DNA from: Fictibacillus solisalsi
Lineage (GTDB): Bacteria > Bacillota > Bacilli > Bacillales > Fictibacillaceae
Length of the DNA stretch: 64,000 nt
Assembly: GCF_900103485.1 (NCBI RefSeq)
Contig: NZ_FNHW01000001.1
Coordinates: forward strand, 2,811,057 to 2,875,056
Reading direction: 5' to 3'
Shown piece after piece: positions 22,820 through 54,087 of this stretch. Below the pieces are notes generated by a model. The model did not search any database. It was not told where the DNA came from and saw nothing but the letters and a program-made list of their open reading frames with translations. The position numbers and the translations under genes were made by a program. Each line of letters opens with the position of its first letter. Position 1 is the stretch's first letter.

Positions 22820-22856
22820 AACAACACCCGCCGGATCGGCGGGTGTTGTCTTTTTC
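22820..22856. terminator. Terminator behind tagU
   Basis: A 13-base stem, ACAACACCCGCCG pairing with CGGCGGGTGTTGT, is followed by CTTTTT on the plus strand. The A tract before it can also help terminate the convergent GH92 gene. Confidence 0.9.
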
Positions 22857-27275: not shown

Positions 27276-28358
27276 TTAGTCTTTATCCGGGCTGTTTACC
27301 TGCACGGTCCCGATAAACTTTTTGTAAAGGTAGAGCACCGGGCGGTATTTATGATGCACGAGGCCGATGATTTCAGCAATTACTTCAAGCATGAGCAACA
27401 AACCGATAACAATCACCACAGAGCCCCATAATGTACTGGATTCAAAAACCACGGCGGCAACGCTGAAAATAATGCTGAGTGCATAGATAACCAGTACGGT
27501 TTTTCGGTGCGACCATCCGAGGTTGATCAGACGGTGATGCAGATGGCCTTTATCCGGAGCGGAAATCGGCGTTTTGTTTGCCATTCTTCGTATAATGGCA
27601 AAGGATGTATCAAACACCGGAACGCCAAGTATGATAATGGGTACGACAAAACTGAAAAGCGTTACGCTTTTGTACAATCCCAGCAAAGATAGAATGGAAA
27701 TGGAGTAGCCGAGAAACAAGGAACCCGCATCCCCCATGAATATTTTAGCCGGACTGAAGTTGTACATCAGGAAACCTGCCGTTGAAGCAGCGATGATCAA
27801 TGCCAATGTAAGAATCATCATGTTTCCGTTTAATCCCGCCATGATCGCAATGGTAATCATTACAATGATGGACACGCCTCCTGCAAGGCCATCCAGCCCA
27901 TCGATCAGATTGATTGCATTGGTGATGGCGATGATCCAGAAAATCGTCGTAATGTATGCCCATGGACCTAAATGAAATGTACCAACAAAAGGTATGGTTA
28001 TCAATTCAATCGTTAACCCGGTAGAGGCAACGATAAGGGCGGCAAAAATCTGGCCGACCAGCTTCACTCTCGCGCTTAACTCAAATTTATCGTCAATCAT
28101 GCCAATCATGACAATAAGAACAGCGCCAACAATGATCCCGGTTAGCTGCATTTCATACAGGCCCGAGACAAAATATCCGACAACCACTCCGAGGAAGATC
28201 CCAACTCCTCCCCAGCGGGGCATTAGTTTATCGTGAACTTTTCGTTGATTTGGTTTGTCCGTCACACCCAGCCGGATCGCCAGTTTAATAATGAAAGGCA
28301 TGGCAATCGCGACCACTGCGAAAGACACCAACGCAGCAATGATCAATTGAACATTCAT
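27276..28358 (-). CDS. tagO: Undecaprenyl-P GlcNAc-1-P transferase TagO
   Basis: 360 residues, about eleven membrane helices, with the MraY/WecA family motifs DDKFELSARVKLVGQIFAAL, NAINLIDGLDGLAGG, IFMGDAGSLFLGY and PDKGHLHHRLINLGWSHRKT. TagO transfers GlcNAc-1-phosphate to undecaprenyl phosphate, the first step of wall teichoic acid and, in several species, of other wall polymers. A TATAAT lies about 100 bases upstream, so it probably has its own promoter although it follows the polysaccharide operon. A second homologue is at 55120. Confidence 0.93.
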   Translation of the reverse strand: MNVQLIIAALVSFAVVAIAMPFIIKLAIRLGVTDKPNQRKVHDKLMPRWGGVGIFLGVVVGYFVSGLYEMQLTGIIVGAVLIVMIGMIDDKFELSARVKLVGQIFAALIVASTGLTIELITIPFVGTFHLGPWAYITTIFWIIAITNAINLIDGLDGLAGGVSIIVMITIAIMAGLNGNMMILTLALIIAASTAGFLMYNFSPAKIFMGDAGSLFLGYSISILSLLGLYKSVTLFSFVVPIIILGVPVFDTSFAIIRRMANKTPISAPDKGHLHHRLINLGWSHRKTVLVIYALSIIFSVAAVVFESSTLWGSVVIVIGLLLMLEVIAEIIGLVHHKYRPVLYLYKKFIGTVQVNSPDKD

Positions 28359-28582: not shown

Positions 28583-29251
28583 CTACTTTTTAAAAATTTC
28601 TGGAAGCAGGAGCAATGAAGCACTGAGAATTAATCCCACCAGTAGACCTAGTATAGCTTTTCGTTTCGGATTGGCATTCGTGTCTGTTGTTTCAACTTTT
28701 TCAAGCAGTTTCGGATCTTTTATTTTAAGCATTCTTGTTTTGAGATCAAACAGGTACTCTTCTTTTTTAATCGTGCCTTCACCTGAAACCTGGGTTCCCT
28801 CTACCCTTTTAATTTGATCATCAAGGGTTGTTCTCCATTTTTCAGACTGATTTCTGCTCTCATTCAAAAAGGCCTTTACAACAGACTTCAACTGGTTTTT
28901 TGCTTTATTTTTGTTCTGGTCGCTCAAGCTCAGGGTGATGATGGTGTCGGTTTCAGGCACCACCTGAAGCTTTTCTTTAAGCTCCTTTTCCTCATCCTTG
29001 CTTAAACCTTTGACCGAACGGAGGAACTCATCACTCAATAGATACTCTTTCGCACTGTCAGGAGTATTCAGCGTTGCATTTTCAGCAGATCCCAGTTTTA
29101 CTTTTGCATCGGCCTGGGAAGTGCCGGGTTCTCTGGACGCTAAAAAATAAGCGATCACAGTGGTTAATATCGGTATCAGCAACAATAAAATAAAGAACTT
29201 TTTAAATCGGTGCCAGATGCTTTCTGTAATTTCTTTCATTTCCTTGTCCAT
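28583..29251 (-). CDS. Wzz/TuaF-like chain-length protein
   Basis: 222 residues with a membrane helix near each end (~19-38, ~198-216) and a charged extracellular middle (LSKDEEKELKEKLQVVPETD). This is the topology of the polysaccharide co-polymerase (Wzz) family and the size of B. subtilis TuaF. It lacks a C-terminal tyrosine-kinase domain. It would set polymer chain length together with the preceding ligase/polymerase. It is the last gene of the 37897-28583 operon, 12 bp behind the 495-residue membrane protein. Confidence 0.75.
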   Translation of the reverse strand: MDKEMKEITESIWHRFKKFFILLLLIPILTTVIAYFLASREPGTSQADAKVKLGSAENATLNTPDSAKEYLLSDEFLRSVKGLSKDEEKELKEKLQVVPETDTIITLSLSDQNKNKAKNQLKSVVKAFLNESRNQSEKWRTTLDDQIKRVEGTQVSGEGTIKKEEYLFDLKTRMLKIKDPKLLEKVETTDTNANPKRKAILGLLVGLILSASLLLLPEIFKK

Positions 29252-29263
29252 ACACTTACTCCC

Positions 29264-30751
29264 TTACTTCATTGGTCGATATGACCCCTCGTTTTGTTTC
29301 ACTCTCCAATAATTAATGAAACTCAAGGAGAATGCGAAGAGAAGCCAAAGATAGTTTAATGATATTTGTGAGCTTGGGCTGATGCAGGAAAGCGAAAAAG
29401 CGATCATGCCGCCAAGAAGCCCTTCACTGATCATTTTTTCATAGCGGGTATGAGATTGTCTGAATATGTGAAAAAGCTGCAGGATGACCCATAAATACAA
29501 AAGCACATACCCGATAAAAATAAAGGCGCCATAATTGACCAGAATTTCCATCCACCAGTTATGAACATTTATGATTCCCTTTGTCGGGTATTCGGCAAAA
29601 TGCATCAGATAGTATTTGGCATTTCCTGAACCAATTCCAAATCCAAAGCTTCTCTCAAAAAATAACCATCCGTTTTTGATCAGATTGGACCGGATGTCCA
29701 CAGAGGTGATCTCCGATTCGGGAGCATTAGTGGTCAAGAGCGACACCAGCATGCCTTCTACTTTTGAAACAGCCGCCATAAGCTTGGACGGGTATACCAC
29801 GGCCAAAGCAGCTCCCCCCGCTGCCCCAAGCAGCATCAGGACTTTTTTGACGTTCCTGTTCGTTAAAAAAACAAACCAGAAGAACAGCCCCAGTGGGATG
29901 GCAATAAAATTTGCCCGGGATGACGTGTAAACAAGTACATAAAGAGAAACAAGCATTACCGCTCCACCTGCTGCTTTCAACAGCCATGATTTTGTGCGGT
30001 GCACAAAGGCCAGGACCAGAAAAAAGCTGACAGAGAGAAAACTGGCAAAATCATTTTCGTTCACAAACACGGAGGTCGGGATTCCTTTTTGATACTCTGC
30101 CACCAGATTGATTCTTGAGATGGCAAGATGATTGTGCGTGACATGGTTCCAGAGCCCGACTGCCGTCAGTACTGCAAACATTACGAGCCAAATCCAGTAC
30201 ACATGTATATATTCCTCTTCTTTTTTCATGAAAAATACCATAAAAAAGATGAGGGAAACACCAATTACGAGAAAGATCAGATCAACTGCCCCCATGGAAA
30301 AAGAGCGTGTCCAACTTAAAGAAAACAGAGCATACAGCACCCAAAACAGGTGAAAATACAGGGCCAGCTTGATTTTCACCTTGTCCCATTGCAGTCCTTC
30401 CTTTTGAAAAAAAGCGAGGTAAAGGAAGACAGGCACCATGACCATATACAGCATCCTGTACGGAAACATGGTGACCGGTCCGGCCGGGATGCTGAGAATT
30501 CCGGCTCCCAGAAAGGAAGTAAAAACCAGAAGATAAAGCAGCAGCGTCGTAAAAGGAATCTCCTGGATGACCGGTTTGGCTGCAAGAAATACGGCAATGA
30601 GTATGATGTAGCCCACAAACGCGCCTGAAAGCAGAACCGGCGATTGGACAGGTACTTTGCCCAGCAGCCAGTTGCCTGCAAACACGGCAAACAGAAGCGC
30701 AAGAATGACTTGAGTTATCTTTGATTCAAGAATATTACGCAAATCCGGCAT
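29264..30751 (-). CDS. TuaE/Wzy-like polysaccharide polymerase or ligase
   Basis: 495 residues with about twelve membrane helices and one large external loop (~330-400) containing FERSFGFGIGSGNAKYYLMH and the VHNWWMEILVNYGAF segment typical of the O-antigen ligase/polymerase (Wzy_C) family. Size and neighbours match B. subtilis TuaE, the presumed teichuronic acid polymerase. It would join lipid-linked repeat units on the outer membrane face. GGGAGGGG precedes the ATG. Confidence 0.85.
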   Translation of the reverse strand: MPDLRNILESKITQVILALLFAVFAGNWLLGKVPVQSPVLLSGAFVGYIILIAVFLAAKPVIQEIPFTTLLLYLLVFTSFLGAGILSIPAGPVTMFPYRMLYMVMVPVFLYLAFFQKEGLQWDKVKIKLALYFHLFWVLYALFSLSWTRSFSMGAVDLIFLVIGVSLIFFMVFFMKKEEEYIHVYWIWLVMFAVLTAVGLWNHVTHNHLAISRINLVAEYQKGIPTSVFVNENDFASFLSVSFFLVLAFVHRTKSWLLKAAGGAVMLVSLYVLVYTSSRANFIAIPLGLFFWFVFLTNRNVKKVLMLLGAAGGAALAVVYPSKLMAAVSKVEGMLVSLLTTNAPESEITSVDIRSNLIKNGWLFFERSFGFGIGSGNAKYYLMHFAEYPTKGIINVHNWWMEILVNYGAFIFIGYVLLYLWVILQLFHIFRQSHTRYEKMISEGLLGGMIAFSLSCISPSSQISLNYLWLLFAFSLSFINYWRVKQNEGSYRPMK

Positions 30752-30824: not shown

Positions 30825-31538
30825 TTACACTTCCTGATTTTTGAGCAGTTGATCTTCAGGTACCAACCGGAACATTCTGGCCGGCTGTCCGGCTACAAGG
30901 TTCTCGCTCTCTACATCCTTGGTCACGAGGCTCCCCGCAGCAACTGCTGCTTCCTGCCCGATTACCTTGCCAGGAAGAATGGTTGAGTTGGCCCCTATTC
31001 TTCCTCCTTTTTTCACGGTAACCCCTTTAAAATGCTTAAATCGTTCCTTCGAACGGGCCATATAGTTATCATTTGTCGTAACGACTGCTGGTGCGATAAA
31101 TACCAGATCTTCCAATTCCGAATAAGCCGTAATGTAGGCATTGGTTTCAATCTTGCATTTCACACCGATCACACAGTCATTTTCTATGGCAGCTCCACGG
31201 CCGATAATCGTTTTTTCACCCACCGTTACCCGCTCGCGCACGGTTGCCAGATCCGCAACAAAAACATCATCCCCTAATTCGGCACTGGCATAAATAATAG
31301 AATTGGTTCCAATCGTTACACCTGAACCGATTTTTGCAGGCGGCAAGGTTTTTAACTCCGGCAAAGCCGAATTCTTTGCACGTGCCGGCTGTTTGCCGAT
31401 CACGGCATTATCCTGGATGATGCAGTTATCGCCGATCGTAACTCCGTTATAGATGACGACGTTATGCCCGATCATCACATTCTCCCCGAGCTGTACATGT
31501 TCTCCAATTACAACGTTTCTTCCCTGGCTGACTGTCAC
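30825..31538 (-). CDS. Hexapeptide-repeat N-acetyltransferase (WbpD/WlbB-like)
   Basis: 237 residues if started at the GTG at 31538, with AGAGGTG 6 bases upstream; a GTG three codons earlier overlaps that RBS. The protein is a left-handed beta-helix of hexapeptide repeats (VVIGEHVQLGENVMIGHNVV, RIGANSTILPGKVIGQEAAV) ending in AGQPARMFR. In the Wbp/Wlb pathway this enzyme acetylates the 3-amino group of UDP-GlcNAc3NA using acetyl-CoA, giving UDP-2,3-diacetamido-2,3-dideoxyglucuronic acid. The presence of the other three pathway enzymes in the same operon supports that substrate. It lies 30 bp behind the aminotransferase. Confidence 0.83.
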   Translation of the reverse strand: MTVSQGRNVVIGEHVQLGENVMIGHNVVIYNGVTIGDNCIIQDNAVIGKQPARAKNSALPELKTLPPAKIGSGVTIGTNSIIYASAELGDDVFVADLATVRERVTVGEKTIIGRGAAIENDCVIGVKCKIETNAYITAYSELEDLVFIAPAVVTTNDNYMARSKERFKHFKGVTVKKGGRIGANSTILPGKVIGQEAAVAAGSLVTKDVESENLVAGQPARMFRLVPEDQLLKNQEV

Positions 31539-31568
31539 TGGATTCACCTCTTTTTCCCCTTGTCCTTA

Positions 31569-32717
31569 TTATGCAAAAGATGTTTCTTTCTTTACCTTGG
31601 CTGGATGATTGCTGAAGTAAGCTGCGATCTGGTCGATCACATACTCCTGCTGCTCTCTTTTCAATTCCGGAAACATGGGAAGAGACAATACGGCTTCGGC
31701 CGCTTTTTCGGTTTCAGGCAGATCGCCTTCCTTGTAACCAAGCTCACTGAATACTGGCTGAAGGTGAAGTGGCTTTGGATAATAAATCATCGAACCGATG
31801 CCCTTCTCTTTCAAAAATTCCTGCAAACCGCTGCGGTCAGGCACCTGAATCGTATATTGATGGAAAACATGGTAATTGTGTTCTTCCACAAAAGGCGTTA
31901 CTACGAGATCCCCAAGCTTTTCGTTCAACAATTCTGTATACACTGCCGCCTTTTCGCGGCGTGCTTCGCTCCATGTATTTAAATGAGGAAACTTTACATT
32001 CAAAATGCCAGCTTGAAGTTCATCCAAACGACTGTTGTAGCCTAAAATATGATGATAGTATTTCGGTTTGCTGCCGTGGACACGGATTACACGCATGGTT
32101 TCAGCAATGTCGTCATCATTGGTAATGATCATGCCTCCGTCCCCATAGCCTCCCAGATTCTTTGTTGGGAAAAAGCTGTAAGTTGCCGTCGTGCCAAGCT
32201 CCCCGACATTTTTTCCTTTGTACTTGGAACCGATGGCTTGTGCTGCATCTTCAATGATCGCCAGGCTGTGCTTTTTGGCGATTTCAGCAATTGGTTCCAT
32301 GTCCGCCATCTGTCCGTACAGGTGTACAGGAATGATGGCCTTCGTTTTTTCAGTAACTGCTGCTTCAATTTTCGCCGGATCAATATTGTAGGTTTTTGGA
32401 TCAATGTCCACAAATACAGGTACTGCGCCAGCTCTTGCTACTGCTCCTGCAGTGGCAAAAAAGGTAAAAGCAGGTACGATGACTTCATCCCCGGCTTTCA
32501 CTCCGCATCCCAGCAGGGAGATATGAAGGGCATCGCTTCCATTCGCTACCCCGACTCCGTATTTCGCAGAGCTGTAATCCGCCACATCCTGCTCCAGTTT
32601 TTTCACGTTATCCCCAAGGATGAAACGAGATCCTGACATGATTTCCTCCAGGCTTGCAAAAATCTCCTCTTTCAATGACTGATACTGTTCTGATAGATCA
32701 AGCATTGGCACTTTCAT
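31569..32717 (-). CDS. DegT/DnrJ/StrS aminotransferase (WbpE/WlbC-like)
   Basis: 382 residues of the sugar aminotransferase family: VANGSDALHISLLGCGVKAG, VPVHLYGQMADM-type segment, IIEDAAQAIGSKYKGKNVG, and the PLP lysine in SFFPTKNLGGYGDGG (Lys ~186). The FFPTKNLGGYGDGG segment is very close to WbpE/WlbC, which aminate C3 of UDP-3-keto-GlcNAc uronic acid with glutamate as donor. AGAGG precedes the ATG. Confidence 0.86.
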   Translation of the reverse strand: MKVPMLDLSEQYQSLKEEIFASLEEIMSGSRFILGDNVKKLEQDVADYSSAKYGVGVANGSDALHISLLGCGVKAGDEVIVPAFTFFATAGAVARAGAVPVFVDIDPKTYNIDPAKIEAAVTEKTKAIIPVHLYGQMADMEPIAEIAKKHSLAIIEDAAQAIGSKYKGKNVGELGTTATYSFFPTKNLGGYGDGGMIITNDDDIAETMRVIRVHGSKPKYYHHILGYNSRLDELQAGILNVKFPHLNTWSEARREKAAVYTELLNEKLGDLVVTPFVEEHNYHVFHQYTIQVPDRSGLQEFLKEKGIGSMIYYPKPLHLQPVFSELGYKEGDLPETEKAAEAVLSLPMFPELKREQQEYVIDQIAAYFSNHPAKVKKETSFA

Positions 32718-32747: not shown

Positions 32748-34004
32748 TTAGTTTCTCGAAAGCTGGTATGACGGAGCTTCCTCTTCACGCTCGCGGTAGG
32801 CGCAGATATCCAGGAAACGGTCTGCCAGCTTTGTAATGTTATGTTTATCGTTCACATACCGATAGCTGCTGCGGGCGATCTCCGCTTTTTCTTCCCCGCT
32901 CAGGTTAAGCAGTTCAACCAGCCCATCAGCAAATGCTCCCGGCTTTTCGGGAGGTACAGTTACCCCCGCTTTTGCTTCGGCTACAATATCATTGGATACA
33001 TTGCCGGCAAAAAGAATCGGCTTTCCAACCAAAAGATAGTCATTCAGCTTATTAAGTGAAATACCATATTTATAGAGTGTGGTGTCCAACATGGAAACCA
33101 TAAGAACATCTGCGAGATCAAGCGTTGGCATGACTTCCTTTTTAGTAATGCCATCAAAAAAGTAGACATGCTCATAATCACTGGCCAGCTTCTTTAACTT
33201 GTCTTTTTCCGGTCCGTCTCCAACAAAAACGAAAGCGGCCTGGTCTGTCGAAATAAACTTCGCGCTCTTGACGACAGTTTCCAGAGAATTTGCCACCCCA
33301 TGAGAACCGACATACATGGCGACCTGGCCGTGCTTTTCTTTAATGCTCTCAATTTCATTCCGAAGAGAGCTCTTGCCTTCCTTTTCTTGCATACGGTCCA
33401 TATTAATGCCGTTTGGAATCACATGGATGATGCTCTCGTCCACACCCATTTCCTTGATATATTCTGCAGCTCCCGGCAGTGTGACGATGATTTGATCTGC
33501 CCGTTTATATACGAACTTTTCAATCGCTCCGAACATGAGAACGGCTGGGTGGTATTTTGACATTGACCCAAGTTCAATCAGGGTCCTTGGCCATAGGTCC
33601 CTGATTTCGACAATGTAGGAAGCCTTTTTCCACCGGCTTAAATAATAGGCAGCCAGGCAGGCGAACAAGTGCACCGAAGAACCGACGATGGCGTCCGGGC
33701 GTTCTTTCTTCATCATCCCTCGCCACAGGGCCATGAAGAAAAACGAGATCATGTTCAAAATCCGCAGGACTCCGTTCCCGTGGTAGGGAAGAGTCCACAG
33801 CCACTCAAAAATGACGCCATTCACATTTTCTTTGTAATTTTTTTTGTGCTTGTTTCTCCAGACAAACCGGTAAGCCAGAAAGCTGCTTGCGAAAATCCTG
33901 ATTTTATGGTCTTTTTTTACCAGTTCATGAGCAATGTCATAGTGTCTGGTTATTCCTGTTTCCGACGGTTTTAATGCTACGTGATTTAAAATCCATACCT
34001 TCAT
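32748..34004 (-). CDS. GT4 glycosyltransferase (WbuB-like)
   Basis: 418 residues from the ATG at 34004 (MKVWILNHVALKPSETGITR), with GGAGTG upstream; a GTG at 34013 would leave no RBS. It has the WbuB-type N-terminus (HYDIAHELVKKDHKIRIFAS) and the GT4 donor region (YVGSHGVANSLETVVKSAKF, FVGDGPEKDKLKKL). It overlaps the preceding glycosyltransferase by 68 bp. It presumably adds one sugar of the repeat unit on the cytoplasmic side; donor and acceptor are unknown. Confidence 0.85.
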   Translation of the reverse strand: MKVWILNHVALKPSETGITRHYDIAHELVKKDHKIRIFASSFLAYRFVWRNKHKKNYKENVNGVIFEWLWTLPYHGNGVLRILNMISFFFMALWRGMMKKERPDAIVGSSVHLFACLAAYYLSRWKKASYIVEIRDLWPRTLIELGSMSKYHPAVLMFGAIEKFVYKRADQIIVTLPGAAEYIKEMGVDESIIHVIPNGINMDRMQEKEGKSSLRNEIESIKEKHGQVAMYVGSHGVANSLETVVKSAKFISTDQAAFVFVGDGPEKDKLKKLASDYEHVYFFDGITKKEVMPTLDLADVLMVSMLDTTLYKYGISLNKLNDYLLVGKPILFAGNVSNDIVAEAKAGVTVPPEKPGAFADGLVELLNLSGEEKAEIARSSYRYVNDKHNITKLADRFLDICAYREREEEAPSYQLSRN

Positions 34005-35160
34005 CTGACTCACTCCATATTAAAGACCTGTTGCCGGCTCCGGCCAGCCGTTCATATAAAGCAACCAGTTCCTGGCTTTCCTTTTCCCAGTTGTATTTCT
34101 CGATGACGGCTTTTCTTCCGTTCTCGCCCATCTGCCTGGCTTCCTCCGGATGCTCAATCAGCCATTTCATCGCATTGGCGATTGCCTCTTCGTCCAGCGG
34201 GTCCACACATAATCCGCATTGGTTGCCGATCACGAAATCCTCCCATAACGGAAAGTTGGAAGCAATGGATGGAATACCGGCAGCCATGTATTCGAACAAT
34301 TTAATCGGATACGATACCATATAGCGCGGTTCAGGCCGTATCAAAACAAGGCCTGCGGTGGACTGGGAAAGCACGTCTTTTACTTCGCTTCTCCCAAGCC
34401 AGCCTTTATGGTCAACGTGCTGCCATCCATCTTTCTTCTTCACTTCCTGTTCAAGAGCTGGAGGAGCAAACTTTCCGGCAAGGACCAATTCGCCCGCATC
34501 TCCCCGGCCATTGAGGAATTCAATCGCAAGCACCATTTCCTTAATGCCCCGAAGCTCCGTAATCCCGCCAATATACAGAAAGCTGTTGTCTTTTCTTTTG
34601 TTACGTTCCGACTGAGGCGAGTTTTCTATCAGTTCTTGCAAGATCGGAAAGTTGTGAACCGTCACCGTATTCGCATTATAGGTTTTAAAGCGTTTGGTAA
34701 TGGTAGGTGTTGCCGTTACGACGGCATCAAACTTGGCTGCAGCGAATTTTTCCATCCTTCTGACCGATACCGAGATATTTTTTCGGAGCGGCTTTGGAAT
34801 CCACTGCTTGGACAATACTTGTTCCGGTACATCTTCATGAACATCATAGATTACCTTTTTGCCTTTTCTTTTCAGAAGAAGGCCAATGACCATGAGCTCG
34901 GGATCATGAAAGTGATACACCTCCGCATCAATCTCAATGGCCGCCCTGTAAACAGATTTGGCTGCATCCACCATACGCTTGTAACGATTGCTTGTGGCTG
35001 GCGTTATGCCAACTACTTTTACGTTATCTATGATCTTATTTTCGGTATTGGGAGCTACTAAATATACATCGTGTCCCGCAAGCGCAAGTGACCGGCATTC
35101 TTTTACAAAAATACGGATGTCATCTGCGGGATGGACGGAAGTTAAATGACAGATTTTCAC
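33937..35160 (-). CDS. GT4 glycosyltransferase
   Basis: 407 residues beginning at GTG 35160 (MKICHLTSVHPADDIRIFVK), with AAGGT upstream. It has a Rossmann N-terminal domain with YDVHEDVPEQV and a GT4 C-terminal domain (FLYIGGITELRGIKEMVLAI, KLFEYMAAGIPSIASNFPLW). Its C-terminal tail extends into the next gene (68-bp overlap), which suggests translational coupling. It is separated from the upstream dehydrogenase by a 362-bp spacer with a repeat element. Sugar specificity is not predictable. Confidence 0.87.
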   Translation of the reverse strand: MKICHLTSVHPADDIRIFVKECRSLALAGHDVYLVAPNTENKIIDNVKVVGITPATSNRYKRMVDAAKSVYRAAIEIDAEVYHFHDPELMVIGLLLKRKGKKVIYDVHEDVPEQVLSKQWIPKPLRKNISVSVRRMEKFAAAKFDAVVTATPTITKRFKTYNANTVTVHNFPILQELIENSPQSERNKRKDNSFLYIGGITELRGIKEMVLAIEFLNGRGDAGELVLAGKFAPPALEQEVKKKDGWQHVDHKGWLGRSEVKDVLSQSTAGLVLIRPEPRYMVSYPIKLFEYMAAGIPSIASNFPLWEDFVIGNQCGLCVDPLDEEAIANAMKWLIEHPEEARQMGENGRKAVIEKYNWEKESQELVALYERLAGAGNRSLIWSESDEGMDFKSRSIKTVGNRNNQTL

Positions 35161-35203
35161 GGTGGTTCACTACCTTCAGTTTGTGAGTTTACCATTGGTA
35201 TGG

Positions 35204-35238
35204 AAAACCAGACCGGATAGGCCTGGTTTTTTCTTTTG
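35204..35238. terminator. Terminator-like hairpin in polysaccharide operon
   Basis: The hairpin AAACCAG...CTGGTTT is followed by TTTTTTC on the plus strand. On the minus (operon) strand its T tract is short. It may partly terminate transcripts between the dehydrogenase and the glycosyltransferases. Confidence 0.4.
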
Positions 35239-35264
35239 TGACTGTTTGCGTAACCTTGTTGCGT

Positions 35265-35490
35265 TTAGAAGTGGTTCATTTCCGTTCCAGGACGCCCGCT
35301 TTTACCGGCGCGAGCGCCTCCTTTCGCGGGGCGTGCGCTGAGCCCATCGGGCGCAAGCGTCTCCTCGGTCTCACCTGTCACGCATATCCCGCAGGATAAG
35401 GAACACTTCGTCAGCGATACATCGCACGAAGAAAATGTGATATTCATTTTCGAGGAGGCTCGCACCTTCCACTCCAATCAACTTGCAATG
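35265..35490. repeat. GC-rich intergenic repeat element
   Basis: This stretch is much richer in G+C than its surroundings and carries the recognisable blocks of a dispersed Bacillaceae intergenic repeat: TTCCGTTCCAGGACGC at one end, CGCGGGGCG, GGTCTCACCTGTC, CCCGCAGGA and GCTCGCACCTTCCACTCCAA with TCAACTTG at the other. About 55 extra bases (35399-35453) separate CCCGCAGGA from GGCTCGCACC. Only one copy is in the window, so its repeat nature rests on my recall of such elements. It lies in the 362-bp gap inside the polysaccharide operon; no gene is credible here. Confidence 0.55.
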
Positions 35491-35522
35491 ATGGTTCTTC
35501 ACGCAATTTTTCCCAAAGCCTA

Positions 35523-36863
35523 TTACAGCAGGTGGTACGTTTTTACTTTGGAGGAGTGCTCTTTCATTGCGTTTCTTGTATCGAACAGGACCGGGCTGTG
35601 TTGGGCGATCAATTCATAGTCAAATGCGCTGTGGTCGGTTGTCAGCAGAACAAGATCGGCATTCTCCAGCACCTCTTTTGACAGCTCGTGTGTTTCCACA
35701 ATGCCCCCCATGTAGCGGAAGGTTTTGACGTGAGGATCAACCACTGTAAATCGCGCACCCGCTGTATCGAGCTTTTCCAGAATTGGAATCACCGGTGATT
35801 CTCTCATATCCTCGATATCCTTTTTGTAGGCAACGCCCAGGATAACAATATTGGCACCATTCATGGCTTTCTTTTCCTGATTGAGAATCTTCATGCTGCG
35901 CTCGAGTACAAAGTCAGCCATGCTGTTGTTGATTTCTCCTGCGGTTTCGATAAGGCGGGTATGATAGTTGTACTCACGCGCCTTCCAGGTAAGATAGAAA
36001 GGGTCGATCGGAATGCAGTGTCCGCCAAGTCCTGGACCCGGATAAAAGGCCATGAAACCATATGGCTTTGTTTTTGCTGCATCAATTACTTCCCATACGT
36101 TGATGTTCATTTTGTCGCACAGGATAGCCATCTCGTTTGCCAAGCCGATATTGATGTTTCGGAAGGTATTCTCAAGGATTTTTTCCATTTCGGCTACGGA
36201 AGGGCTGGTTACTTCATGAACTTCACCTTCCAGCACTGCACGGTAAAGAGCGGAAGCAACCTTTGTACAAGCAGGTGTTACGCCGCCGACAACCTTTGGT
36301 GTATTCTTCGTATTAAACACTTTATTGCCCGGATCCACCCGTTCCGGCGAATAAGCGAGATGAAATTCTTTTCCGCACGTGAATCCGGAAGACTCAAGGA
36401 TCGGGCGAAGCAGTTCCTCTGTTGTACCGGGATAGGTTGTGCTCTCAAGAACAATGAGCATGCCTTCATGGAGAAACCTCGCAATTTCTTTGCCTGAGCT
36501 TTCCACATAGGATGTGTCAGGCTGGCGATAAATATCAAGCGGTGTTGGTACGCAGATAGCAACTGCATCCACTTCTGAGATCAGAGAATAGTCAGTGGTC
36601 GCCCGGATCTGCTTTGTGGAAGTGAGCATTGCCAGCTCCTCGTCCACAACGTCTCCGATATAGTTAATGCCGTCATTCACCATGTCAACGCGGCTCTCCT
36701 GTACATCAAAACCAATGACCTTATATCCTGCCTTTGCCTTTTCAACAGCGAGTGGAAGCCCCACATATCCAAGTCCAACCACTCCGATGACTGCTTCTTT
36801 TGTTTGAATCTTGTTCAGCAATTGCTGTGTTACATCCCGATGTGTTCGCTGTAGGGTTTCCAT
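35523..36863 (-). CDS. UDP-N-acetylhexosamine 6-dehydrogenase (WbpA-like)
   Basis: 446 residues of the nucleotide-sugar dehydrogenase family. The NAD-binding motif is GVVGLGYVGLPLAVEKAKAG. The catalytic cysteine is in GLGGHCIPIDPFYLTWK (~277). The C-terminal domain has GVAYKKDIEDMRESP. The sequence belongs to the WbpA/TviB type that oxidises UDP-GlcNAc (or UDP-ManNAc) to the uronic acid, not the UDP-glucose TuaD type. With the WbpB, WbpE and WbpD homologues here it would supply UDP-GlcNAcA as the first pathway step. It overlaps the preceding gene by one base (TAATG), and AGGAGG lies inside that gene's end. Confidence 0.9.
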   Translation of the reverse strand: METLQRTHRDVTQQLLNKIQTKEAVIGVVGLGYVGLPLAVEKAKAGYKVIGFDVQESRVDMVNDGINYIGDVVDEELAMLTSTKQIRATTDYSLISEVDAVAICVPTPLDIYRQPDTSYVESSGKEIARFLHEGMLIVLESTTYPGTTEELLRPILESSGFTCGKEFHLAYSPERVDPGNKVFNTKNTPKVVGGVTPACTKVASALYRAVLEGEVHEVTSPSVAEMEKILENTFRNINIGLANEMAILCDKMNINVWEVIDAAKTKPYGFMAFYPGPGLGGHCIPIDPFYLTWKAREYNYHTRLIETAGEINNSMADFVLERSMKILNQEKKAMNGANIVILGVAYKKDIEDMRESPVIPILEKLDTAGARFTVVDPHVKTFRYMGGIVETHELSKEVLENADLVLLTTDHSAFDYELIAQHSPVLFDTRNAMKEHSSKVKTYHLL

Positions 36864-37897
36864 TAGTTTAAAACCTCCTGAGGTTGCATTTTTACCGGCT
36901 GATTGTTTTCGGAAGATTCATACAGTGCGAGGACCAGCTCCAGTGCTTTCTTTCCGTCCTCACCCGTTACAATAGGTTCCCGGTTCTCATGAACCGCTTC
37001 GACCATATCCTCAATGATGCATTGATGGCCCGGCTTTCCAAATGGGTCTGCCTTAATGGATTTCATAAGTTCTTCTGTTTCTAGTTCAGTTGTTCCTTCG
37101 ACCACCCAGTGTTCCACGTTGACCGCGGTTGGCCCGCCAATTTTGATGCTTCCTTTTTCGCCGAAGATGGCGAGGGATTCTTCAAAGTTTTTTGGATAAA
37201 TGGTGGTGGCTGTTTCGATCACACCCAGCGCCCCGCTCGTAAACTTGACGAGACCGGTGCACACATCTTCTGCTTCTATATCACGAATGCGGGTTGCGCT
37301 CATGCTGAATACCTCATGAATACCGCCCATCATCCAGAGCATTAAATCCAGGTTATGGATCGCCTGGTTCATCAGTACGCCGCCGTCGAGCCCCTTTGTT
37401 CCTCTCCAGGGAGCCTGATCATAGTAAGCCTGGTTTCTATTCCACCGGACCGTAGCGTTCACGTGGCTGATTTTGCCAAGCTTCCCGCTCTCAATTACTT
37501 CCTTCAGCTTTTTCATCGCCGGACGGAACCGGTTCGGATGAACGACTGCAAGTTTTACGCCATTCTGTTCACACGCATCAATCATTGCGTTTGTATCCTT
37601 CAATAAAAGAGCAATCGGCTTTTCTACGACAATATGTTTTTTCGCTTCTGCTCCCTGTACAGCCAATGAGGCGTGAAAGCCGCTTGGTGTGCAGATGTTG
37701 ATGACATCTATATCCTTGTTGGCCAGCATTTCCGTATAATCCGTGTAAATTCTGGCATTATACGTATTTCTGTAGAATTCCATATTCTCCGGGATTGTGT
37801 CACAGACAGCGATAAGTGCTGCTCCTTCTGCCCGTTCAATGGCTTCTGCATGTTTTTTCGCAATATGGCCGCATCCTACAATCGCAAAATTAAGCAT
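36863..37897 (-). CDS. Gfo/Idh/MocA 3-dehydrogenase (WbpB/WlbA-like)
   Basis: 344 residues from the ATG at 37897, with AAGGAG 8 bases upstream; a TTG two codons earlier is too close to the RBS. The Rossmann motif is FAIVGCGHIAKKHAEAI, followed by the family EKP motif (HIVVEKPIAL) and the downstream H in GGVLMNQAIHNLDLMLWMMG. WlbA/WbpB oxidises C3 of UDP-GlcNAc uronic acid using NAD. It is the first gene of the operon and is preceded by the PhoP-like promoter at 37949-38001. Confidence 0.88.
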   Translation of the reverse strand: MLNFAIVGCGHIAKKHAEAIERAEGAALIAVCDTIPENMEFYRNTYNARIYTDYTEMLANKDIDVINICTPSGFHASLAVQGAEAKKHIVVEKPIALLLKDTNAMIDACEQNGVKLAVVHPNRFRPAMKKLKEVIESGKLGKISHVNATVRWNRNQAYYDQAPWRGTKGLDGGVLMNQAIHNLDLMLWMMGGIHEVFSMSATRIRDIEAEDVCTGLVKFTSGALGVIETATTIYPKNFEESLAIFGEKGSIKIGGPTAVNVEHWVVEGTTELETEELMKSIKADPFGKPGHQCIIEDMVEAVHENREPIVTGEDGKKALELVLALYESSENNQPVKMQPQEVLN

Positions 37898-37948
37898 CGA
37901 CAAAACTCCTTCATTCTGGCTTGCTTTTCACTAGATTTCTTCGTCCAT

Positions 37949-38001
37949 TTTATAGTATTTCCAAGCAAATTCAGGTAAATTCTCGGTTAAGAGATTGTTA
38001 A
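37949..38001 (-). promoter_or_regulatory. PhoP-type activated promoter of the uronic acid operon
   Basis: Read on the minus strand: TTAACA, 5 bases, TTAACC, 5 bases, TTTACC, 5 bases, TTGCTT, 8 bases, TATAAA (-10). The four hexamers start exactly 11 bp apart and would cover about -59 to -21, with no normal -35. This is the arrangement of PhoP boxes (consensus TTHACA) in PhoP-activated B. subtilis promoters. The start codon follows about 45 bases after the expected transcript start. PhoP binding is inferred. Confidence 0.7.
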
Positions 38002-38126
38002 GACGATTTACAAAAAACCACCGTTTTCACGGTCTTTTTCTTCAAAGACTTATGCTGTCTGCGATTCAGGATTTACATATTCTTAATAAACAGAAATTAA
38101 TCGGTACACATATCTCAATTACATAT

Positions 38127-38158
38127 GAAAAAGCACCCTCCTAAAAAAGGAGAGTGCT
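38127..38158 (-). terminator. Terminator behind the epimerase gene
   Basis: A stem AGCAC-CTCCT / AGGAG-GTGCT with one mismatch is followed by TTTTTCAT on the minus strand, 28 bp after the epimerase stop. A smaller hairpin (ACCGT-TTTC-ACGGT at 38020-38033) with GGTTTTTTG follows and may act as a back-up. Confidence 0.7.
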
Positions 38159-38185
38159 ATATATATATTCTTGCCCTGTATTCAA

Positions 38186-39109
38186 TTATGTTATTTTCTC
38201 GGGACGCTGCATTTGTCTGACCGTTTCCTCGATCCCTGCGGTCAGCGATGTTTCGGGTCTCCAGCTGGAAATGCCCAGGAACCTTTGATTGTCCAGGCAA
38301 CTGCGGTAAATATCCCCTTCACGCGGCTCACCATAAACCGGCTCAAGCGGACTGCCCATTTCCCTTGCCATAATCCGGTATAGCTCATTCACTGAAATTT
38401 CCTCATTGGAGCTCACATTATAAATCCCGTCTTCCACCCGCAATGCAGCACAATTGGCACGTGCAATGTCCTCTACATAAATAAAGTCGCGGGTCTGTCC
38501 TCCGTCTCCAAAAATGGACACTTGCTCCCCGTTGAGCAGTTTATCCAGAAAGATTTTAATAACTCCGCCTTCCCCGTCCTTTGTTTGCTTCGGACCATAA
38601 ATATTGGAATAGCGAAGAATGGAATAGCCAATTGCATTCGCCTCGCAAAAAGCCGTAACATACATTTCGCAGGAAGCCTTGGAGACGCCATACGGTGCGG
38701 TTGGCACCAGATGTACACTTTCCTTAAGCGGTACTTGTTCATTGTTTCCATAAACCGCTGCTGTGGAGGCAAAGATAAACTTCTTTACTGAAAGAGAGCG
38801 GGCCAATTCCAGCATCCTGACCGTTCCCTCAATGTTCAATTGCAAGTCGTTTACCGGGTTTGCTACAGAAGCCGGCACACTGGTCTGGGCCGCCAGATGG
38901 ATGATCGCATCAATCCCGTAAGGTTCAAGCACCTCATATAGCGAGCCATCCAAAATATCGCCTTTAATGATCACATCATCCAGTTGGACATTGGCTGTGC
39001 TGCCTGTCAGAAAATTATCCAGCAGAATCGGGTTGTGCCCCTCATTTTTCAATGCCTTCTTCGTAAAAGTGCCTACAAATCCGGCACCGCCTGTAATCAA
39101 TACATTCAT
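38186..39109 (-). CDS. NAD-dependent sugar epimerase/dehydratase
   Basis: 307 residues of the extended SDR family: NVLITGGAGFVGTFTKKALK (NAD site), IIHLAAQTSVPASVANP, the catalytic STAAVYG and YGVSK (Tyr/Lys), and RYSNIYGPKQ. It is closest in style to GalE/WbpP-like UDP-hexose or UDP-HexNAc 4-epimerases, but specificity cannot be read from sequence. It is the last gene of the 41813-38186 operon. Confidence 0.85.
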   Translation of the reverse strand: MNVLITGGAGFVGTFTKKALKNEGHNPILLDNFLTGSTANVQLDDVIIKGDILDGSLYEVLEPYGIDAIIHLAAQTSVPASVANPVNDLQLNIEGTVRMLELARSLSVKKFIFASTAAVYGNNEQVPLKESVHLVPTAPYGVSKASCEMYVTAFCEANAIGYSILRYSNIYGPKQTKDGEGGVIKIFLDKLLNGEQVSIFGDGGQTRDFIYVEDIARANCAALRVEDGIYNVSSNEEISVNELYRIMAREMGSPLEPVYGEPREGDIYRSCLDNQRFLGISSWRPETSLTAGIEETVRQMQRPEKIT

Positions 39110-39124: not shown

Positions 39125-40453
39125 CTAATACCTGAGTTTTAGTTTGCGAATGACATTCTTATAAAGCCGCAGATCGCTTTTCTTTACGAGCAAAAAGCGG
39201 TGGTATGGTTCGTTCGTTACTTTTTTGTAGAGAAAAATCTTAACCACAAAGCTGACAAAATAGGTAATGGTCGCCGAAAGCGCTGCACCGTTAAGACCGT
39301 ACTTCGGAATAAGGACAACGTTCAGAAGCAAATTAAACAGCACATTGAAAATAGACAGATACATGTTTAACTCCGGCTTTCCTCTTCCCGCGATGTCGTT
39401 GGACAATATCTTTTCAACGGAAAGCAGCGCTACACCCGGCAAGATGATCCGAAGCAGGTTTGCGCTGTTTTCATACTGCTCACCAAACAGTGTAACAATC
39501 AGGTCCTTTGCGATGAGTGTACCGGCCAATGCAATCACAAATGTAATCGCCAAAATATTCCGTGACACGAGTGAGGTCAGATGGTTACGTTCTTCTTCGG
39601 TTTCGATGGCGGCAATTTTAGGGTAAAGAACATTTGACACCGATGCCGCAAAAATGGCAAGTCTCTCCCCGATATTCATCGCGGTAACATAAATCCCCAC
39701 TGCCGAATCCACCATGAAAAAGCCGATAAGAAAAATAACAATCCGGTAGTTCAGAAAACTGGCAAAGTTACTGATATGCGCCTTCAATCCATATTTGACG
39801 GACTTTCGGAAGTACTCCCATGAAAATCCCCTGATATCAAAGCGCAATTTATGCCTTTTTTTCAGCTGATAGACCATATAAACAACGTTAATCAGGTTCC
39901 CGGCAATAAACGCCAGAATTGCGCCTTCCAGGCCAAGTCTGAAGATCAGTACAAAAACAGCAACAAAGGCCAATATGCCAAGCTGGTTCACCACCATCGC
40001 GGTGTTGAACACCTTAAAATCCTGCAATCCTTGAAAGACCGTCTGAAAATATTCGCGCAAAAACATGAACGGTAGGGCAAGCAGGCACAAGTACAAGAGG
40101 ACATGCGGTGTCTCATTAAAGAACTTTTCGGAAAAAAAGAAGATGACAACCGCTCCAAGCCCTATGCTTACAATGCTCAGCAATGTTCCGATGATAATAT
40201 TGTTGTTATAGACAGTATTGAGCTTAACCTCCCCTTTACTGATGTAATAAATGGTGGAGGTGTTGATGCCCAGGGTCAAAAAAGTGAGCAATACCGTAGG
40301 AAGAAGGGTGATCAGCGAGTATTTACCCTGCCCGGCTGGCCCCAGAATCCTGGCAAGCACCACGAGCAGGAGAATGCCGATCACGATATTGGTCACCTGT
40401 CTTGAAAACGTTAAGAAACTGTTTCTGACAAAGCTTCGGTTGTCGTCGCTCAT
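39125..40453 (-). CDS. Polysaccharide flippase (Wzx/TuaB-like)
   Basis: 442 residues from the ATG at 40453, one base past the upstream stop (TGATATG); an in-frame ATG at 40471 lies inside that gene with a poor RBS. About twelve to fourteen membrane helices, with the MOP/Wzx-type opening SFLTFSRQVTNIVIGILLLV and LARILGPAGQGKYSL. It would move lipid-linked repeat units across the membrane, the role of TuaB in teichuronic acid synthesis. Confidence 0.87.
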   Translation of the reverse strand: MSDDNRSFVRNSFLTFSRQVTNIVIGILLLVVLARILGPAGQGKYSLITLLPTVLLTFLTLGINTSTIYYISKGEVKLNTVYNNNIIIGTLLSIVSIGLGAVVIFFFSEKFFNETPHVLLYLCLLALPFMFLREYFQTVFQGLQDFKVFNTAMVVNQLGILAFVAVFVLIFRLGLEGAILAFIAGNLINVVYMVYQLKKRHKLRFDIRGFSWEYFRKSVKYGLKAHISNFASFLNYRIVIFLIGFFMVDSAVGIYVTAMNIGERLAIFAASVSNVLYPKIAAIETEEERNHLTSLVSRNILAITFVIALAGTLIAKDLIVTLFGEQYENSANLLRIILPGVALLSVEKILSNDIAGRGKPELNMYLSIFNVLFNLLLNVVLIPKYGLNGAALSATITYFVSFVVKIFLYKKVTNEPYHRFLLVKKSDLRLYKNVIRKLKLRY

Positions 40454-40454
40454 A

Positions 40455-41813
40455 TCAAGAACCGCTCCCATTCTTCACACTCAATAAAAAGCTGAGGTAA
40501 TTTTTCTGAGCATTGTATTCCTGTTCCCATTTGCTATATGCATGGGCACGATAGGTTTGTTTCTGCTCAACGGGCAAAGCCGCAAATTTCTCGATATAAC
40601 CCGCAAGTTCATCTGCAGCGACATCAGATGGGATTAAAAAGCCGTTCCTCTCATCGACCAGCTCCCTCACTCCCCCGACATCCGTCGCAATGACTGGAAT
40701 TCCTGTACTAAAGGCTTCCATAATAGTCACCGGGATTCCTTCACTTGCACTGACGTTGACAAAAAGGTCCACCGGTCGGGTCCGGTAAAATTTAAAGATT
40801 TGCTGCTGGGTCCAGTGGCCCTTAAAATCAATGACAATCTGGCCATTCAGCTCTTCTTTTGCTCTTCTTTCCAGATTTTCACGATCCTCCCCATCCCCTA
40901 TATGGGTCCAATGGATCGGAATGGTGGTCTGCTTCAAAGCATCAACAAGCAGGTCCAACCGTTTCACAGGCTTCACATACGAACAAGTTACAATCCGCAA
41001 GATCCCATCAGGGGATGGAGATGACATAAACCCTGGTTTTTCTGTACCCAAACGGTGTACAAGAAGATTCGCCCCTGCGCCAGAATACTTACCTTCCAAA
41101 AATCGTTTCCCATCCTCGGAAATCATGTTCACTGAATTTAATGCGTTAATCACTCTTCCCTGAAATGGAAGATACGGAGGTGAATGCCTGTAATCATATA
41201 CATCCCCGCCGTGAGCCCGTGAGACGGCGAGAAGTTCGGGAAAGGTTTCCTTCAGCATGGCCAGTGCCACTGCGGCCGGTGTCAGCCAGTAGGAATAAAA
41301 CACGGCATCGTTTAGTGCAAAGCCGGGATCATCGAGCCATTTTTTCCTTATTTCATCACGGATCCTGAGGGCATGGCTGAGCCAGTTGGCCAGCTGCATC
41401 AATCCTTTGCTTCCAAAAGCCCTGGCCTTCGGGAGCTCCGCCGAAAACCAGCGGCGTCCCTGTGGATCGGCAGTCACACTGTAAAAGGTATGAATATACT
41501 TTTTTGTGCCTTCCGGTCTTCCCGGTATGGAATGCAGCTGAATATGATCAGGCACCTTACGCCGTTCACCGCTGCCATTCACTGAAGCAATTTCTATTTT
41601 TTCAAATAGGTTCACCATATACTTCAATTCAGTTTCCAAGAACTGCTCCCCGGGCAGATAGGGATAACGGTTGGTTATAAGAATCATGTGCTTTCTTGCT
41701 GTTCCATTCACGTTTTGCAATGTGTTCACCATCCTTGGTATCCTTGCTGCTCTTTTCATTCTTTCCAAAAACTGACCCGTATAAGGCCGTTCTCTTAATC
41801 TTTCGAAGGCCAT
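40455..41813 (-). CDS. GT4 glycosyltransferase
   Basis: 452 residues in the long form. The start is uncertain: the ATG at 41813 has AAAGGA too close, and the conserved part only begins at MILITNRYPYLPGEQFLETE (about residue 43). It has a GT4 C-terminal domain: VTCSYVKPVKRLDLLVDALK, IGDGEDRENLERRA, VNVSASEGIPVTIMEAFSTG and PVIATDVGGVRELV. It is the first gene of the operon with the flippase and epimerase, behind the PhoP-like promoter at 41861-41914. Confidence 0.83.
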   Translation of the reverse strand: MAFERLRERPYTGQFLERMKRAARIPRMVNTLQNVNGTARKHMILITNRYPYLPGEQFLETELKYMVNLFEKIEIASVNGSGERRKVPDHIQLHSIPGRPEGTKKYIHTFYSVTADPQGRRWFSAELPKARAFGSKGLMQLANWLSHALRIRDEIRKKWLDDPGFALNDAVFYSYWLTPAAVALAMLKETFPELLAVSRAHGGDVYDYRHSPPYLPFQGRVINALNSVNMISEDGKRFLEGKYSGAGANLLVHRLGTEKPGFMSSPSPDGILRIVTCSYVKPVKRLDLLVDALKQTTIPIHWTHIGDGEDRENLERRAKEELNGQIVIDFKGHWTQQQIFKFYRTRPVDLFVNVSASEGIPVTIMEAFSTGIPVIATDVGGVRELVDERNGFLIPSDVAADELAGYIEKFAALPVEQKQTYRAHAYSKWEQEYNAQKNYLSFLLSVKNGSGS

Positions 41814-41860: not shown

Positions 41861-41914
41861 ATGATAGGGGTTGATTGTTAACGCACCTTAAATTTATTAT
41901 GAAACTTTTGTAAA
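41861..41914 (-). promoter_or_regulatory. PhoP-type activated promoter of the flippase operon
   Basis: Read on the minus strand: TTTACA, 5 bases, TTCATA, 5 bases, TTTAAG, 5 bases, TTAACA, 9 bases, TATCAT (-10, five of six). The four hexamers are exactly 11 bp apart. Layout and distance to the -10 repeat those of the promoter at 37949-38001, which controls the sister operon. No -35 consensus is present. PhoP binding is inferred. Confidence 0.65.
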
Positions 41915-41949: not shown

Positions 41950-41977
41950 TTCATTAAAATGTAATATTCTTTATAAT
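41950..41977 (+). promoter_or_regulatory. Candidate promoter of the second LCP gene
   Basis: TTCATT, a 16-base spacer and a perfect TATAAT (41972-41977) lie about 180 bases before the LCP start. The long leader contains a hairpin at 42046-42063 (TGTCGA-gggtat-TCGACA). Confidence 0.4.
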
Positions 41978-42159
41978 TTTTTTATTGAATTTACACAACT
42001 TTAAAGGTATCTTTATTGTATGCTTCCAAAAATTTACGTTCCTTATGTCGAGGGTATTCGACAAGGGACGGGAAGATACTCTGTTGTTCCAGCAGTTAAA
42101 ACGAACCAAGATATTAACTCATATAAATAAAAGAAGAGACAAAAAGGAGAATATAATAG

Positions 42160-44767: not shown

Positions 44768-44812
44768 AAAAAACGCCCCGAAAGCCAAATGGCTTTCGGG
44801 GCGTTTTTACTT
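44768..44812. terminator. Bidirectional terminator
   Basis: A 14-base perfect stem, ACGCCCCGAAAGCC / GGCTTTCGGGGCGT with an AAAT loop, has A and T runs on its two sides and serves both the pyruvyl transferase and the convergent tandem polymerase gene. Confidence 0.92.
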
Positions 44813-48162: not shown

Positions 48163-48208
48163 ACTTTTCCATTCCTCCCATGTCATATCTCACTGCTTCT
48201 CAGGTAGG

Positions 48209-53948: not shown

Positions 53949-54000
53949 TTTACAAAAAATTAATCACACTTTTACAAAAGCAGCTCATTCATGATATAAT
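53949..54000 (+). promoter_or_regulatory. PhoP-type array 1 and promoter P1, tagA-tagD spacer
   Basis: TTTACA (53949), TTAATC (53960) and TTTACA (53971) start 11 bp apart. The last hexamer can also be a -35, with TATAAT at 53995-54000 after 18 bases. Overlap of the repeats with the -35 would fit repression of tagA. Confidence 0.55.
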
Positions 54001-54015
54001 AATTCGTAAAAATAC

Positions 54016-54047
54016 TTGCATTTTGGTACCCTTACTCATAATATAAT
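54016..54047 (+). promoter_or_regulatory. Promoter P2 of tagA
   Basis: TTGCAT at 54016-54021 with TAATAT after 17 bases, overlapping a perfect TATAAT at 54042-54047. The leader of about 135 bases starts with PhoP-type array 2 and ends with a palindrome at 54154-54169. Confidence 0.5.
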
Positions 54048-54048
54048 C

Positions 54049-54087
54049 TTTAAGTTTTTTTTACAAGCTCTTAATGAAGTTTTTACA
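54049..54087 (+). promoter_or_regulatory. PhoP-type array 2 downstream of the tagA promoter
   Basis: TTTAAG (54049), TTTACA (54060), TTAATG (54071) and TTTACA (54082) start exactly 11 bp apart. The array begins right after the TATAAT at 54042-54047, so bound protein would block tagA transcription. In B. subtilis PhoP represses tagAB and tagDEF in phosphate starvation from the same intergenic region. Binding here is inferred. Confidence 0.65.

Follow-up and report, generated by a model that had tools for sequence, protein, structure and literature searches.

A candidate PhoP-activated promoter in front of a putative diacetamido uronic acid polymer operon in Fictibacillus

The sugars of the teichuronic acid of Bacillus subtilis are glucuronic acid and GalNAc. 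The promoter of its tuaABCDEFGH operon carries TTHAYA-like boxes that repeat in phase every 11 bp before a -10 element, with no -35 element. According to an excerpt of PMC6232261, phosphorylated PhoP (PhoP~P) activates tuaA-H and represses tagAB in this species. Here we describe an array of the same kind in front of a polysaccharide operon of Fictibacillus solisalsi, in a stretch of 64,000 nucleotides that we call the window. Judged from its sequence, this site (hereafter the 38001 array) is probably a PhoP-dependent activation promoter that switches on the polymer operon in phosphate starvation, with a probability of about 0.7. The features of the region are listed in Table 1.

Table 1. Promoter elements, box arrays and genes discussed in the text, with their positions in the window and the basis of each assignment.
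Feature	Position	Strand	Basis or remark
Proposed PhoP array TGTAAA-5-TTAACA-5-TTAACC-5-TTTACC	37974..38012	-	three good boxes and a distal degenerate one; precedes wlbA-like gene
TTGCTT, fourth hexamer of the preliminary description	37963..37968	-	degenerate; not conserved as box
-10 element TATAAA	37949..37954	-	19 bp after TTTACC; 5/6 columns invariant in 6 species
Upstream opposite-strand element TTTACA-5-TTAATA	38070..38101	+	R1 13.3 bits; partly conserved
GFO/IDH/MocA dehydrogenase, WlbA-like; opens the operon	36863..37903	-	domain and sequence similarity
Nucleotide-sugar 6-dehydrogenase	35523..36863	-	TIGR03026 433.7 bits; Cap5O 3ojl
GT4-type glycosyltransferase	33937..35160	-	domain searches
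GT4-type glycosyltransferase	32748..34013	-	domain searches
DegT-type aminotransferase, QdtB/WbpE-like	31569..32717	-	domain and sequence similarity
Hexapeptide acetyltransferase, QdtC-like	30825..31547	-	weaker match to 3mqg
TuaE-like polymerase, Wzy_C domain	29264..30751	-	NF047675 294.3 bits (cut-off 400); PF04932
TuaF-like protein	28583..29251	-	NF047685 133.2 bits (cut-off 340)
WecA/TagO-like phospho-sugar transferase	27276..28358	-	PF00953; TIGR02380 160.6 bits, under cut-off
Pho-type promoter TTTACA-5-TTCATA-5-TTTAAG-5-TTAACA-9-TATCAT	41861..41914	-	precedes GT-flippase-epimerase operon
Glycosyltransferase (GT3)	40455..41813	-	domain searches
Wzx/TuaB-type flippase	39125..40471	-	domain searches
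NAD-dependent epimerase/dehydratase	38186..39109	-	domain searches
Intrinsic-terminator-like hairpin	38132..38158	-	11-pair stem and T tail; similar sequence in five species
Box array in tagD/tagA intergenic region	54038..54087	+	pooled-hexamer score 25.4; lacks a -10 beside it; candidate site of PhoP repression
Consensus-like promoter TTTACA-18-TATAAT	53971..54000	+	upstream of tag array; direct reading

The preliminary description of this DNA had reported four hexamers, spaced 11 bp from start to start and ending 8 bp before TATAAA. This spacing is exact on the minus strand, where TTAACA (38001-37996), TTAACC (37990-37985) and TTTACC (37979-37974) are followed by TTGCTT (37968-37963) and, 8 bp further, by TATAAA (37954-37949). 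The absence of a -35 element held as well: a promoter scan of 37880-38250, tolerating -35/-10 spacings of 16-18 bp, gave no sigma-70-like -35/-10 pair on the minus strand, its sole match being on the plus strand. The reading of all four hexamers as TTHACA-like, however, stood for three only. These clear boxes agree with TTHAYA at 6, 5 and 5 of 6 positions, whereas TTGCTT agrees at 3/6 and is not conserved as a box, its position reading TTGCTT, TCGCTT or TTCCTT among relatives. A further hexamer in the same 11-bp register, TGTAAA at 38012 (4/6), is invariant in six Fictibacillus species. Because TTGCTT is degenerate and variable, the upstream boxes are constant, and the array of genome G008 described below is alike, TGTAAA-TTAACA-TTAACC-TTTACC appears to be the better register, one helical turn farther upstream than usual. 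The plus strand carries the TTTACA-5-TTAATA element, possibly a second PhoP dimer site, about 70 bp upstream of the array.

Promoters of phosphate and teichuronic acid genes served as yardsticks. A search of 60 genomes for pstS returned 30 loci; among the upstream regions of these loci and of the own genome, 30 of 31 scored at least 19.5 for four boxes at 11-bp spacing. One locus (L097, 17.0) was dropped, and the remaining 29 sites of relatives formed the training set of a looser, pooled-hexamer model. For tuaA-type promoters, we scored eight regions with TuaE from 299 sampled genomes, in which the presumed tuaA-type sites lie about 1.8-5.8 kb upstream of tuaE. Six of these regions have a TuaE over the cut-off. 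Their top-scoring array on the operon strand was of this form too, with a gap of 9 bp and a score of 12.8-25.1; the array of one of them (L161) lacked a recognisable -10. The two regions with TuaE under the cut-off scored 14.2 (L164) and only 2.8 (L163). Within the own genome, 11-bp repeats were present at pstS (pooled-hexamer score 33.1), at phoA (18.9) and at the 3' end of phoR (25.2), while no four-box array was found upstream of phoP (L165) or at the second phoA-type gene (L015). The phoR 3' array (L001:1424-1477, minus strand) has a 9-bp gap and TAATAT, directly follows the phoR stop codon and lies upstream of a gene that we take to be polA. It corresponds to PhoP boxes given for B. subtilis in an excerpt of PMC6232261.

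These yardsticks qualify the tuaA-like geometry that had been claimed for the 38001 array. In-phase 11-bp boxes before a -10, with no -35, occur at this array and at tuaA. In pstS- and tuaA-type promoters, however, a good box adjoins the -10 at a gap of 9 bp. At the 38001 array, it is the poorly matching TTGCTT that stands closest to the -10, at 8 bp, and the well-matching boxes are a full helical turn farther away. The distance from TTTACC to TATAAA is 19 bp, compared with 20 bp implied by pstS and tuaA. The own pstS box and the 38001 array have TTWACAATCTCTTAAC in common, but two boxes of the latter end in C.

The pattern TTWACN6TTWACN6TTWAC, which was composed after the site was known, matched once in the 4,797,611-bp genome, at the 38001 array, and its reversed control did not match at all. 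In the loci of 80 relatives (1.62 Mb), it matched four times, at the orthologous sites in L016-L019, and the reversed control once. The three-box score of the site was attained by 0 of 798,920 positions of a background sampled from the own genome (20 x 20 kb, i.e. 400 kb). By the pooled-hexamer model with four boxes and a -10, the originally described register scored 9.0 (rank 7 of 127,892 window positions; attained by 2 of 797,840 background positions) and the 38012 register scored 12.6 (rank 4; attained by 1 of 797,840). We adopted this model because a pstS-only matrix with spacers, by which the site ranked 3 of 127,892, carries pstS spacer information; that matrix was set aside. A strict search for three TTHACA boxes with 5-bp spacers and zero mismatches gave no match in the genome, and thus missed even the own pstS promoter.

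Profile R1 was built from the pstS, tuaA, phoA and phoR 3' sites and contained no site from the window. Its scoring covered 150 of the 2319 first-look candidates. Three of the 27 matches were training sites, three were in the window and six preceded phosphate-type genes; seven others that were inspected showed no phosphate gene (Pfam was run on three). Matches in the own genome included two GDPD genes and genes for a PhoU-like DUF47 protein, PAP2, PhoX and PhoD. Contrary to expectation, R1 did not recover the 38001 array at E <= 10 in the genome or the window with default filters. Scoring with Pho matrices, the check proposed at the outset, was hence divided: the pooled-hexamer model ranked the site highly, but the strict profile missed it. 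Because R1 misses the site, we describe it as working like a PhoP-activated promoter and not as a proven member of this class.

A second Pho-type promoter in the window (the 41914 promoter) was missed in the preliminary description. It was the top of the 127,892 window positions in the pooled-hexamer model (30.9), and R1 recovered it with 15.4 bits (E 0.0014 in the window, 0.106 genome-wide). It has the four boxes, 9-bp gap, -10 element and R1 recovery of a Bacillus-type PhoP-activated promoter, and the Bacillales pstS promoters have the same four boxes and gap. Across six Fictibacillus genomes, 22/24 box columns, 12/24 spacer columns and 6/6 columns of the -10 were invariant. With the diverged cluster L228 added, these counts became 18/24, 1/24 and 6/6, where the box match is partly due to selection, as the L228 counterpart was chosen by box score. 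Farther upstream, on the plus strand, five Fictibacillus show strong conservation at 41968-42040, in front of the LCP ligase gene (42160+). Box-like repeats there score 11.3, and 10.1 in four relatives; they may form another target of the PhoP or WalR type.

The 28-nt core of the 38001 array was invariant at 28/28 columns in six Fictibacillus genomes, compared with 31/81 upstream columns. The spacers inside this core were as invariant as the boxes in these close species, so the six-species alignment cannot by itself tell boxes from spacers. Genome G008 offers a more distant comparison: its cluster L228, with a TuaE 54% identical, carries TTTACA-TTAACG-TTTACC in 11-bp register. This array lies between the flippase gene and the following glycosyltransferase gene (GT1), about 110 bp before the next gene; it has the same TTWAC pattern and no clear -10. 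G008 divides these features over two clusters. L228 has Pho-type promoters and, within the part that was read, neither the wlbA-like gene nor the dehydrogenase gene; L229 has both genes and lacks a Pho array at its operon.

The preliminary description presupposed a PhoPR system, and PhoP and PhoR are indeed encoded together in the genome, PhoP first. PhoR exceeds the TIGR02966 cut-off by 0.1 bit. PhoP scores higher on the NCBIfam YycF model (289.6, cut-off 340) than on the PhoB model (229.4, cut-off 296.2), and is under both cut-offs. Its receiver domain matches B. subtilis PhoP (1mvo) with 188.6 bits versus 143.2 for YycF (2zwm). The YycF/WalR of the genome is encoded by a separate gene and, at 454.9 bits, is over the YycF cut-off.

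The WalR consensus TGTWAH-N5-TGTWAH, read on the opposite strand, has nearly the same core as the PhoP boxes. WalR (YycF) might therefore be the main protein on the 38001 array, so that the operon would track wall growth and not phosphate. We regard this as unlikely, but as a serious rival for this array because the two cores are nearly the same, the match counts tie and the protein is encoded. Opposite-strand matches to TGTWAH equal those to TTHAYA along the array (both 4, 6, 5 and 5), and TGTAAA fits WalR in the forward sense at 6/6. In contrast, the 38001 array has more than two in-phase repeats, and these stand beside a -10 without a -35, as in the genome's own Pho promoters. Moreover, the L228 array and the 41914 promoter slightly favour PhoP (22 versus 20 of 24 each), and the second promoter of the cluster is pstS-like. 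Crosstalk between WalRK and PhoPR is discussed in an excerpt of PMC13403408.

Less probable still is that TTTACC-19-TATAAA forms a sigma-A promoter, constitutive or linked to growth, whose -35 is poor and too far from the -10, and that the TTWAC repeats are incidental. On direct reading, TATAAA is a fair -10 and TTTACC matches TTGACA at 4/6, but the 19-bp spacing falls outside the 16-18 bp of the scanner, which found no such promoter on the minus strand; furthermore, the boxes at 38001 and 37990 do not vary between species, and the genome contains the three-box pattern nowhere else. That the 41914 promoter is the only real Pho promoter of the cluster and the 38001 array a weak relict or internal site is very improbable: the former scores 30.9 versus 9.0 in the pooled-hexamer model and is the one that R1 recovers, but a terminator-like hairpin lies between the two operons, the 38001 core is invariant, and an array recurs at the matching place in L228.

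Downstream of the 38001 array, a run of nine genes extends from 37903 to 27276, with internal gaps of 362 bp (35161-35522) and 224 bp. The minus-strand scan gave neither a promoter-like nor a terminator-like match in these gaps, so the run is likely one operon, although the 362-bp gap could host another promoter. Its first gene, wlbA-like, has 96% identity to that of F. enclensis, the nearest named record. The WbpA/WlbA-WbpE-WbpD pathway leads to diacetamido uronic acid. The operon resembles it in the sequences of its dehydrogenases, aminotransferase and acetyltransferase, but no WbpI-kind 2-epimerase was found among its named genes. By this enzyme similarity we infer a diacetamido uronic acid product. 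Because the TuaE-like and TuaF-like proteins are both under the NCBIfam cut-offs, we treat them as homologues and not as proven equivalents (equivalogs). Next to this operon, at 22856-27046 on the minus strand, lies a gene for a 1396-aa GH92 glycosyl hydrolase with F5/8-type C and FIMAH domains.

The hairpin between the epimerase gene and the 38001 promoter would separate the GT-flippase-epimerase operon from the wlbA-like operon. In L023, L026, L035, L038 and other Bacillaceae, the genes of both operons stand in one block, which suggests a single pathway. As in the tua operon of B. subtilis, TuaE/TuaF-type products are encoded and paired with a tag array. Tua genes form one operon, whereas Fictibacillus has two, and its sugar genes predict diacetamido uronic acid in place of the tua sugars.

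The divergent tagA/tagD region of the window carries a box array, like the PhoP-repressed tagAB/tagDEF region of B. subtilis; this comparison covers the gene order and the presence of boxes. All seven Fictibacillus genomes searched carry such an array; its best box score ranges over 17.6-24.2 on this strand, and opposite-strand scores reach 14.8 at most. It occurs in two registers, the best one lying one box earlier in 4/7 genomes. No -10 adjoins the array, which suits repression. Elsewhere in the window, a gene for a 1124-aa protein with TarS_C1 and CDP-glycerol glycerophosphotransferase domains (44812-48186, minus strand) lies beside a polysaccharide pyruvyl transferase gene (43395+).

Both polymer promoters were present in the genome of the window, L016-L019, L227 and L228; four of the regions L223-L227 are probably the same records as L016-L019 and were counted once. 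The polymer operons of G001 (L222), L229 and L230-L232 gave no such array. The box array of L229 (21.0) is away from its polymer operon, and L227 scored 15.2. We also inspected the 350 bp before the wlbA-like gene in 80 loci, the best 80 of 100 relatives found. The score of the window, 18.0, was attained only in L016-L019, the next being 16.5 (L061). The pooled-hexamer scan, with results for 30 of the 80 loci, placed a high-scoring array immediately in front of the polymer operon in L016-L019 only. Several other arrays were not counted: those of L029, L035 and L049 (9.0-12.3) lie 1.6-2.5 kb upstream, those of L029, L036, L037 and L042 (9.6-13.2) are on the opposite strand, and that of L031 (Peribacillus cavernae; 30.6, L031:452-506) is 4.8 kb away, past two opposite-strand genes. 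One of these two genes reads as SecA-like from its translation. Since our scans gave no array at the polymer operons of L222 and L229-L232, and 76 of the 80 wlbA loci score below the window, PhoP control of a diacetamido-uronic-type polymer looks lineage-restricted, whereas the tag array occurs throughout the seven Fictibacillus genomes searched.

The sequence and geometry of the site, its conservation, the gene content, the presence of PhoPR and the Pho-type arrays at known Pho genes are direct results of this analysis; PhoP binding, the direction of regulation, the phosphate response, the operon extent and the polymer chemistry are all things that we infer in the following scheme. In phosphate starvation, PhoR would phosphorylate PhoP. 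PhoP~P would then bind head to tail on TGTAAA-TTAACA-TTAACC-TTTACC (38012-37974) and recruit RNA polymerase, the promoter itself offering TATAAA as a usable -10 but lacking a good -35. The nine-gene run would thereby be switched on, and its products would make a wall polymer free of phosphate and rich in uronic acid, assembled in the TuaE/TuaF manner. PhoP would also activate the adjacent GT-flippase-epimerase operon from the 41914 promoter, and would probably repress tagA, so that the new polymer takes the place of teichoic acid. Such a PhoP-driven replacement of teichoic acid by a teichuronic-like polymer, assembled from known parts, is our best reading of the locus. We found no paper joining Fictibacillus and teichuronic acid, and the titles and abstract openings of literature on teichuronic, diacetamido and phosphate contained no mention of Pho control.

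We give even chances to a broader proposal, namely that close Fictibacillus species and one diverged relative wired a TuaE/TuaF-assembled diacetamido-uronic-acid polymer to phosphate starvation by way of two PhoP promoters and retained tag repression, that this exchange scheme can be filled by different polymers, and that the 38001 array represents PhoP acting one turn upstream. If true, the phosphate-sparing wall exchange of B. subtilis would be broader than its glucuronic-acid polymer, with a swappable polymer and constant regulatory logic. It would also provide a testable Pho regulon for Fictibacillus and predict when an unstudied wall polymer is made.
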